Below are positions 31,449 to 46,395 of a stretch of 64,000 bases of DNA, in pieces. The translations under genes were made by a program, and so were the position numbers. The notes under the pieces are model-generated. The model had not been told where the DNA came from. It ran no database searches and saw only the letters and a program-made list of their open reading frames with translations. Numbering within the stretch: the stretch's first letter is position 1; each line of letters opens with the position of its first letter. The DNA lies in NCBI RefSeq assembly GCF_003945595.2, contig NW_024104420.1, positions 4,462,201-4,526,200 of the forward strand, given 5' to 3'. Source of the stretch: Pipra filicauda. Lineage: Eukaryota; Chordata; Aves; Passeriformes; Pipridae.

Positions 31449-34400
31449 ATGGAGCCACTCTGTGGAGCAGTTTGCACTGCTTTTTCTTTGGCCTATTCCG
31501 GCTACTTTTTGACTCACCTGACAAGTAAGTAGAGGGTGCAGCATCTTCAAACAAATGATGCTTGCATCTGAGGTGCAGCATCTCGAAACAAAACTGCCAC
31601 AAAGATGGCATTAGTTAGGTAAAGCTCCTGTCAACAACTTCAGCTAAGAAGGGGGTGTTTCTGGCCAGTGGGGTGTGGGCAGCATTTGGAATGTAACTCG
31701 CAGGGCTTCCCTTCCCTCCATGAGGTGGTCTGTACCAGTGGAATCTGTCATTTCCTTAGTTTGCTGGCTCAACTTGCACAATGCAGACAGGGAGACCTTG
31801 CCAGGAGTCCTTCTAAAAACTGTGCAGTTCTCTCCAGAATTGAGGAAGAGCATCTTTTTCTCTTCATTCCCTCAATAAAGGATTTGACTGTGTGACTTGA
31901 CACTTTCTGTGTGTGCTGACATAGCAATTCCCTTTGTGATGAAGTGCAAACTCCAAAACAGTTACTGTATGCTTGTGAACCCAGCAGCTGCTCCCCTTCT
32001 ATGGCAGAATAGAAGTGCCACAGCTAAGGGAGATTCTGGGGCTGCTTTTCTGGGGAAATGTCTTCAGAGAGCTAACAGGAATGAGAGTGTGCAATTTATT
32101 AAAAAAAATAAAAGTACAGGAACATGTTCCCGGTTTGGGTTGACTTGTTCTTCGGGATTCCCCAGCACAGACAGTTTTCTAACAGTATCTGGTTGCTTTT
32201 CCCTTTCCTCTTGCAGGACACATCACACGTGGATGGAGAGAAGCCCATCCTTCGGTGAGTGGGAAAGGCCCTTTTGACCTTCCTGGTGCTTGAGAATTGT
32301 GGAGCAAGCTGTGAGCTTGGCCTCTTGCAGTAGAGTGCCAGCCTGGTGGGCTGAAAGATAGTCCATTTCAGTGCCTGCATCAGCAGTAGCAAAGGGATCG
32401 CTGCTGTTTCCTAATGTCCCATCAAAGAGCTTTTTAACACAGAAAAGTCAAGGTTTGCAACAGAAGGTTGCTTGCTGATTGCAGCCAGGGTGCAATATCG
32501 AATTCACAATAATATGCATTACTGTCACATGGGTCTAATTACCCCATTTGCATGTACTTTCAAGGACTTAGAATCCTCCTTCCATCCAAGTTCATGATTT
32601 CTCTGCAGTCCAGCAGGAAATAGAAGCTCAACAAAAATCAGGTCCGAAAAGACAGGTTACTCCCTGTTCCTCACGCTGCTGTCTGTCCACAGAGCACAAC
32701 ACCAGCATCAGAACCTCCTCTGGCTCTCTCTCTTCCTGAAGATGAGGCTAAAGAGGAGGGCCGTGCCAACGCATTTCCACGTGTTGCCACTCCACAGCCT
32801 GAACATCCCAAAGCAGTAAGTGGCAGCTTTGCTTGGCACTGTCTCTGCTGCAGTGCAGAGCTGCAAGTTTCTGCTCACACAGCACTTGCCCTTTGTGGCT
32901 GAAGATGCTGAGGGCTGGAGTTTCTCTGTGACACCAGCACTCCACCGCAGCCCCTGACACCTGGAAAGTGGCTTCTGAACCTTCATGTGTAGCCATCAGT
33001 TTCCTGGTATCCTGAGCGGCCCGTGAATCTCTCTTGGTATCAGAGAAGAGGTAGCACCATGTCCTTGCATGCTGCCAGTGGAAAAGGGAGCAGATTTGTG
33101 CACAGTGTCTGTGCAGGCTCCCTGTTGACAGCACACAGAGCCGTCCAAAGACACAGTTCACAGCCTTGCAGGATACCAAGGAGACACTTTCCCCTGGGGG
33201 AAGCTGCCCCTCTCCATGGACTATCTAAGTAGCTTCTGGCACAGCTTAGACCACACCCCCAACTTTGACAGGCCCCAAGGCTGGGGAGAAGAATCCTACC
33301 CAGCTCTGCATTGGAGAGGGAAGGGCTGTGTCTGAAGGGCTGGCAGGCACTTCCTAAGGGCTGTTCCCTAAACCTTGGAAGACTGAGGAGAAGTCAGTTG
33401 AACAGATCAGAGAAGGGAAATGCTCCCTGCTTCTACTGAGACACGTACATACCAACTCCAGGGTCATTTTGCAGGCCCTGACAGAAGAGCTTTCTGCCCG
33501 TCAGGACTCCACAGCCCAGATGGAAAAGGTGGAGTGGCAGGAGAGGATGGATGGAGGGCTCAGTGTCCCAGAGCTCCTGTGAGTGTTAAGCTTTCTTGCT
33601 TTCTCTGGACAGGGGTGGGCATTTCTGGGCTTTAGAAAGCCCACCATCAAAGAAGGAATTTTGCCGGCTCATCATCTGTAGCACAGACAGGAGAAGGGAG
33701 CACATGGGCTTGAGGAAGTCCCATATCCAATGTATCAAAAAGGAGAATAAGACCTAGCAGGCAGGAAGCTGTTCAGTTGAGAATATCTGAGCTTCCTGGA
33801 AAAGGAAGCTGATTTCTGGAAGGTTGTTTTCCTTTCTCAAGGACAATTGTTTCACCTGCATCAAGGACAAAGGGTGACACAGCTCTAGTCAGGGAATTCT
33901 AGCATTCCTTCAGTGGAACTAGAAGGCTGTTGGAAGTCACTCCATCTGTGGGACACAGGACGTAGTCTTAGTTTTGGAAAGGAGACTGTTTTGCTCTTAA
34001 AGACTTGTTTGTCTGTCCCGTTCTCACAGACCAAAGCAGCTGGCAGTAGCTGAGAGAAAACCCTCCTTCTCAGAGCGGGAGTTGGCAGTGGTGGAAGAGA
34101 CAGTGGAGGAATGGCAGCTCCAGAAGGATCTGCTGAAGGAGGAGAAAGCTGACCTTACCAAGGCACTGGCAAAGGTATGGTCACTTTCTTCCTCGGTGGC
34201 ACTTATGGAAGAGGGAGTTGCACTGGCAAGACCATCCCAGATGCTGTTCTGGGCAGTAGAAGGTGGGGACTTGTTCTCCTTAGAAAGAAGCAGGACCAGG
34301 GCAGTGACTGTTGCCCTGTACTCAGCACTAGTGAGGCTGCACCTCAAATCCTGTGTTCAGTTTTGGGCCCCTCACACCTAGAAAGACATTGAGGGGCTGC

Positions 34401-46395: not shown

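Follow-up and report, generated by a model that had tools for sequence, protein, structure and literature searches.

The locus at positions 31449-46395 of the window (the whole 64,000-nucleotide stretch of Pipra filicauda DNA analyzed here) raises the question of whether a segment resembling the coiled coil of CEP250 and a PAK-type kinase belong to one gene, where its parts came from, and what a protein built in this way would do. We consider it fairly probable that this is a PAK3-derived kinase gene with nine in-frame CEP250 exons, the product of which is likely a dimer held together by the coil and active without Rho GTPases.

The gene was rebuilt from the sequence as 21 exons (A to U), with 2568 nt when spliced, corresponding to 855 codons plus the stop codon, with AG and GT at all internal exon boundaries and consistent phases throughout. 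Each exon was compared with the bird PAK3 protein P0128 and the bird CEP250 proteins P0018 and P0029, using 300 shuffles per exon, from which the z values below derive. The features of the locus are as follows.

31449..31524, + strand, exon A: start codon; resembles, by eye, the first residues of coil-less PAK3-like proteins
32217..32254, + strand, exon B: PAK3-derived (PAK3 162-169), short, ends EAHPS; z 5.1
32693..32815, + strand, exon C: acidic/proline exon from PAK3 (residues 170-213), ends in phase 0; z 10.6
33475..33578, + strand, exon D: presumed first exon of the CEP250 block, begins in phase 0; weak alone, z 4.0
34030..34174, + strand, exon E: CEP250-derived; z 12.0; P0018 488-534
35421..35489, + strand, exon E2: 69 nt, phase 0-0; present in Pipra and Neopelma proteins
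35776..35969, + strand, exon F: CEP250-derived; z 33.1; P0018 659-722
36744..36871, + strand, exon G: CEP250-derived; z 25.8; P0018 724-765
37071..37240, + strand, exon H: CEP250-derived; z 15.3; P0018 767-822
37987..38133, + strand, exon I: CEP250-derived; z 15.0; P0018 823-871
38706..38840, + strand, exon J: CEP250-derived; z 16.3; P0018 883-927
39106..39249, + strand, exon K: CEP250-derived; z 19.7 to P0018 (928-975), 0.8 to P0029
39786..39920, + strand, exon L: CEP250-derived; local duplicate of J, ends in phase 0
40015..40217, + strand, putative dead CEP250-like exon: stop and frameshift; in the L-M intron, 162 bp before M
40380..40545, + strand, exon M: PAK3-derived linker, starts at PAK3 residue 214 (IYTRS)
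40718..40781, + strand, exon N: PAK3-derived; kinase start
40948..40996, + strand, exon O: glycine loop
42239..42348, + strand, exon P: catalytic lysine (VAIK)
42980..43097, + strand, exon Q: kinase
43933..44032, + strand, exon R: HRD motif
44467..44663, + strand, exon S: DFG, activation loop, APE
45630..45767, + strand, exon T: kinase
46309..46395, + strand, exon U: kinase end and stop codon
46435..46440, + strand, AATAAA: likely poly(A) signal
53454..60886, + strand, second copy: limited to exons J-S; broken, with 4 bp deleted from exon Q

None of 2000 letter shuffles of the 21-exon coding sequence was open (mean, 35.7 stops per shuffle), and the frame is therefore not a product of chance; the 21 phase-matched exons with 855 open codons claimed by a sequence-only reading of this DNA were thus recovered by the rebuild. 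That reading had overlooked the 69-nt exon E2, which the proteins of Pipra and Neopelma contain and whose inclusion gives a model of 22 exons and 878 codons. The coil block, exons D to L, comprises 434 open codons, with 0 stops in its own frame versus 20 and 12 in the other two. A predicted protein of this species in NCBI, P0001 ("serine/threonine-protein kinase STE20-like isoform X2 [Pipra filicauda]"), agrees with the locus at 789 of 789 residues and represents a splice form that starts at the ATG at 32742, in another frame of exon C, and continues through E, E2, and F-U with D skipped. This identity means that the public predicted gene model joins exon L to exon M. An Rfam scan of the whole window returned no match at gathering scores.

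The L-M intron was described by the sequence-only reading as free of a poly(A) signal and of a CpG-rich start, and this held: between 39920 and 40380 neither AATAAA nor ATTAAA occurs and the CpG observed/expected ratio is 0.21, and an AATAAA is located at 46435, 40 bp beyond the stop codon. These observations, together with a frame that stays open over 21 exons, argue against the view that a CEP250-like piece and a PAK3-like kinase, two neighboring genes of an array, were wrongly joined and that no fused protein exists.

The exon comparisons placed the coil inside a PAK3-like unit, as PAK3-derived exons flank it on both sides. Exon C gave z 10.6 to PAK3 versus 0.2 to CEP250 P0018, exons E-L scored 12 to 33 against P0018 and no more than 1.3 against PAK3, and exons M-U gave z 6.5 to 54 to PAK3, with the match reaching PAK3 residue 550; exon A matched none of P0128, P0018, and P0029. 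Exons E-L are collinear with P0018, L being the duplicate of J, and the same holds for P0029 except for exon K, which matches one of the two CEP250 references. Exon D alone scored z 4.0 to P0018, below its best shuffle, and 1.8 to P0029, and D and E jointly align with CEP250 366-377 and 464-534. The end of C and the start of M are adjacent in PAK3 (213|214, PRPEHTKS|IYTRSVIE), and the nine CEP250-derived exons (D-L) are located between these two residues, in phase 0 at both ends. A plain end-to-end fusion of coil and kinase was ruled out, exons B-C being PAK3-derived as well. The order "coil first, kinase second" of the sequence-only reading is accordingly half right: a CEP250-like coil is in frame with a PAK-type kinase, but PAK3-derived B-C precede it. 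The coil is not the ordinary N-terminus of a PAK, with no CEP250 match in 15 coil-less PAK3-like proteins or in PAK3. According to PMC10017488, the PIX-binding sequence of PAKs is proline-rich and located between their autoinhibitory region and kinase domain, and by our reading of the sequence the CEP250 insert would fall at its edge.

Seven query proteins were searched against the window with its exons masked. Two of the seven matched the L-M intron at 39964-40217 (within 30-47 kb), namely P0020 (Anomalospiza, CEP250-like; E 9e-8 over two pieces) and the manakin fusion P0012 (57.6% over 33 residues, E 6e-6), and queries P0018, P0023, and P0029 gave no match in this intron. The match is interrupted by a stop and a frameshift, and in P0012 the matched residues shortly precede the PAK3 linker. 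The stretch 40015-40217 is read as a further CEP250 exon that appears dead in this locus, which would bring CEP250-like DNA to within 162 bp of exon M, where the PAK3-derived part resumes. A search of the 30-47 kb interval for relics of PBD exons, with one PAK3 query, found none at E 0.05.

Three protein searches gave 183, 7926, and 185 matches at E 0.001, and the best 120 of each amounted to 327 distinct proteins. Among these matches listed, 19 of the 327 matched the CEP250 stretch as well as the PAK3 kinase (E 1e-5), 12 of them in what we take to be suboscines (Pipra, Neopelma, Pseudopipra, Pithys, Myiozetetes, Corapipo, Chiroxiphia, and Lepidothrix) and 7 in presumed oscines (Oenanthe, Hirundo, Vidua, Taeniopygia, and Haemorhous); placement in Passeriformes was confirmed by look-up for three species and is assumed for the rest. 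Judging by their names, these relatives are gene predictions. CEP250-only proteins of other birds were plentiful among the matches listed, none of them with a kinase at E 1e-5. The PAK3 acidic segment precedes the coil in 8 of the 19 predicted proteins, from both suborders, and the other 11 lack it, start later, use another frame, or have an odd order. Two of the 19 suggest that gene models in such arrays can join neighbors: P0237 has the kinase before the coil, and P0010 combines a coil as in P0011 with a kinase of another type, and both look like products of read-through or mixing in an array. Given the acidic exon ahead of the coil in eight proteins and the PAK3-derived exons on both sides of it, we regard a wrong joining of two genes as very unlikely at the locus studied, and we retain the single gene with a CEP250 block.

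The relatives retain differing subsets of this block. In the oscine P0007, exon L and more than half of exon I are unaligned, and this is partly so in the oscine P0006. The coil-less PAK3-like proteins P0125, P0130, P0132, and P0134 run straight through the insertion point. A shared deletion in exon D (CEP250 378-463) was tried as a marker and set aside, being clear in the window and P0008 and ambiguous in the other seven rows tried; the alignment of exon D to CEP250 is ambiguous in oscines. P0129 (Pseudopipra pipra, PAK 3-like) matches PAK3 twice and represents a tandem two-kinase model.

The kinase tree comprised 36 rows: the window, 18 of the 19 relatives (all but the truncated P0002), 12 selected coil-less proteins, and 5 PAK3 proteins. 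The 31 PAK3-like rows, window included, were split from the 5 PAK3 rows with support of 100/100 in this tree, from which PAK1 and PAK2 are missing. A branch supported at 99/98 unites 14 coil-bearing kinases, including that of the window, from suboscines and oscines alike, and the other five coil-bearing kinases (P0010 and P0012-P0015) group with coil-less ones. A single clade of coil-bearing kinases was rejected for the window and 18 relatives (p-AU 4e-05) and also without P0010 (0.014), which calls for conversion, for losses, or for repeated gain. The common insertion point would be best explained by a single early gain and subsequent losses, a preference based on that point; two gains, or conversion between copies, are possible. 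In the coil tree, 28 CEP250 rows are located on one side of a branch supported at 98/99 and the fusion coils on the other, where P0238-P0241, initially labeled CEP250, also fall; by sequence, these are partial fusions.

Taken with a single gain, the origin may be pictured as follows. A PAK3-like duplicate in the passerine ancestor, already without the PBD and autoinhibitory exons, would have taken a block of genomic DNA from CEP250 into the intron that separates the exon ending PRPEHTKS from the exon starting IYTRS. The block, being in phase 0 at both ends, could be spliced without breaking the frame, and later copies would have lost differing parts of it.

The window also contains a second copy of the gene, which the sequence-only reading had taken as support because it keeps the same order. 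Positions 53454-60886 are 99.4% alike to 38178-45606, and exons A-I, T, and U occur once, in the first copy (apart from the duplicates J and L and, within F, a self-match of 18 bases). The second copy thus has J-S only, and its frame is shifted by the loss of 4 bp in exon Q; truncated and frameshifted, it cannot serve as independent support. The 5' residues of P0003 (Pseudopipra, PAK 3-like) match the window at 50929-51003 and 51974-52246, ahead of the second copy, which makes 5' exons of its own possible; this copy, broken in this window, may have alternative 5' exons. A repeat of 92% links 30023-30432, upstream of the gene, with 53052-53462, which abuts the start of the second copy, and the latter looks as if it came from a unit minus 30.4-38.2 kb.

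Several other features surround the gene. A purine-rich simple repeat (46610-46900) is located directly 3' of it, and a 98% direct duplication (47211-48473 and 48798-50058) lies between the gene and the broken copy. Retrovirus-like pieces flank the kinase region on both sides, one a gag stretch matching Gag_p24 and zf-CCHC_5 and the other a piece of reverse transcriptase of RNase H-like type, at 62595-63752 and 25125-25418, both on the + strand. On the - strand, a gene-like tandem duplication spans 13953-20686, with 14907-16648 and 18511-20261 being 99% alike and 13953-14875 and 17421-18344 being 94% alike; two open stretches of this region had no Pfam match.

Loss of Rho-GTPase control, as proposed by the sequence-only reading, is consistent with the domain content. 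Pfam identified the kinase domain in the window protein, and the Rho-GTPase-binding domain PBD (PF00786) was found neither there nor in P0002, P0006, P0008, P0012, and P0125; it was detected in the PAK3 protein P0128, which served as positive control. The window protein retains the glycine loop, the catalytic Lys, the Glu, HRD, Asn, DFG, and APE. Among the relatives, P0008 has Ala for the first Gly of the loop, P0003 has Gln for the late Arg, and P0237 is without DFG. Ser replaces the activation-loop Thr of PAK3 in the window protein and in every one of the 18 relatives that extend to the site (P0002 ends earlier); the Pro that follows the P+1 Thr is altered in 17 of these 18, being kept in P0237 and replaced by Val in the window.

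The coil block has a heptad-like period (z 11.8, with none of 500 shuffles as high), which was not detected in window residues 514-855 (z 0.1). The structure model used for P0001 was built on 51 rows (pLDDT 74), and an earlier one was set aside (14 rows, pLDDT 57). It predicts helices at 42-88, 125-349, and 358-445, with block confidence ranging over 50-93 along the two long helices, lying mostly at 71-96 across the kinase, and dropping below 50 in the activation loop (655-668). The structures closest to this model were PAK1 chains, with PAK3 6fd3 ranking ninth (TM 0.92 by target length).

Whether the coil is always part of the product is a separate matter. Splicing of C to M with D-L skipped leaves the frame open and gives 421 aa, approximately the size of the coil-less relatives P0132 and P0134. 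The phase 0 at both block ends means that such splicing would yield a coil-less kinase from the same gene, and the coil may accordingly be optional. Taken further, the coil exons would be a decaying passenger, with the 421-aa kinase as the real product or the locus silent, a view in keeping with the preserved frame upon skipping of D-L, the existence of coil-less relatives, the CEP250-like exon that already appears dead, the broken adjacent copy, and the differing block subsets among relatives. It is harder to reconcile with 434 open coil codons with a heptad-like period (z 11.8) and with approximately half of the aligned D-L residues being identical in the oscines P0006 (197/373) and P0007 (186/351). 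Amino-acid changes per site are also fewer than silent changes between exons L and J (dN 0.12, dS 0.29), although this comparison of 135 nt tests selection on the coil weakly. We therefore think it unlikely that the block is a mere passenger, and we prefer a gene in which the coil contributes to the kinase.

How the coil would contribute can be outlined from the biology of PAKs. According to PMC10017488, the autoinhibitory region keeps group I PAKs inactive until GTPases release them, and the PAK3b, PAK3c, and PAK3cb forms are already active without GTPases. In the product of this locus, a rod of approximately 434 residues would form a parallel dimer or oligomer, which would favor trans-phosphorylation of the activation-loop serine, and the insert may take over from the PIX-binding neighborhood as the targeting element.

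A different emphasis, to which the sequence-only reading leaned, is that the coil mainly places the kinase at the centrosome or sperm neck via partners of CEP250. CEP250 is a centriole-linker protein. In mice, centriole cohesion is required in male germ cells, and males lacking CEP250 are sterile (PMC8809461); testis expression is reported for some PAK3-like copies in PMC13060935. The block, however, corresponds to an inner stretch of CEP250. In P0018 (1134 residues), matches of the coil exons are confined to 366-975, with none past 975; the Rootletin domain (PF15035), present at 10-182 of P0018, is absent from the window protein, and the C-terminal end with the NEK2 site is outside the block, as NEK2 binds residues 2362-2442 of C-Nap1, its last 80 residues (passage of PMC4038944). 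Further, PMC9595518 reports that a terminal fragment of cNap1, from either end, sufficed for centrosome localization, as did the R188 truncation. CEP250's own targeting would thus be a poor guide for this inner stretch. The claim of centrosome placement is weakened by the missing NEK2-binding end, although such placement may still occur, depending on how far the terminal fragments extend relative to the block; association of the product with rootletin or the centriole linker is possible, and placement as the main role of the coil seems to us rather doubtful.

The most likely function is that of a coil-dimerized, GTPase-independent PAK3-like kinase, probably of the germ line, the latter being inferred from the reported testis expression of the family. 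A far-reaching version is that of an ancient, multi-copy PAK3-CEP250 kinase of the passerine germ line, free of Rho GTPases and steered by its rod to rootletin fibers or the centriole linker of male germ cells, with copies competing through sperm performance or a transmission advantage, and with the domain invention also made by tumors in their coiled-coil kinase fusions; we hold this to be distinctly unlikely.

The PAK3-like family (PAK3L) and the loss of its 5' exons are already known (PMC13060935, citing Kong et al. 2010), and a passage of the same source states that its function awaits elucidation. No description of a CEP250 insert in PAK3-like kinases was found in the open-licence papers searched, and CEP250 has 0 occurrences in PMC13060935 and PMC4377847. 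The database names of such proteins vary among STE20-like, PAK 3-like, and CEP250-like, which suggests that the parts have been seen and apparently not put together. If a subset of PAK3L carries a CEP250 rod in place of the regulatory region, the rod would be a concrete and testable control element. If true, this would also form a likely link between a testis-biased family and centriole cohesion, and it would provide the coiled-coil kinase fusions of tumors with an inherited counterpart in nature, one that arose through exon shuffling of a phase-matched block.

Compared with the passerine PAK3L kinases, the window gene has the same PAK3-derived kinase and linker, lacks the 5' regulatory exons as they do, and may likewise be multi-copy, with one truncated and broken copy beside it in the window; its kinase falls in their group (100/100 versus PAK3), the acidic exon is common to both, and the first exon is alike by eye. 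In contrast to the coil-less members, it has a CEP250 block between the acidic and linker exons. With group I PAK3 it shares a kinase that is 64-68% identical, the acidic segment, the linker, and the fold of 6fd3, but the window protein is without PBD and has the CEP250 insert, Ser for the activation-loop Thr, and Val for Pro. Its coil exons follow the order of CEP250 (C-Nap1), with 58% identity over window residues 148-468, whereas it has the inner stretch only, without the Rootletin domain or the C-terminal end (NEK2, CEP135), with J duplicated as L and a kinase attached. Human tumors harbor coiled-coil kinase fusions, such as PCM1-JAK2 and EML4-ALK, in which a cytoskeletal or centrosomal coil replaces the control of the kinase, and the CEP250 rod would work alike. 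Unlike these, the window gene is inherited, its plan is predicted in two suborders, its kinase is a Ser/Thr kinase of the PAK group, and its coil is inserted rather than N-terminal.
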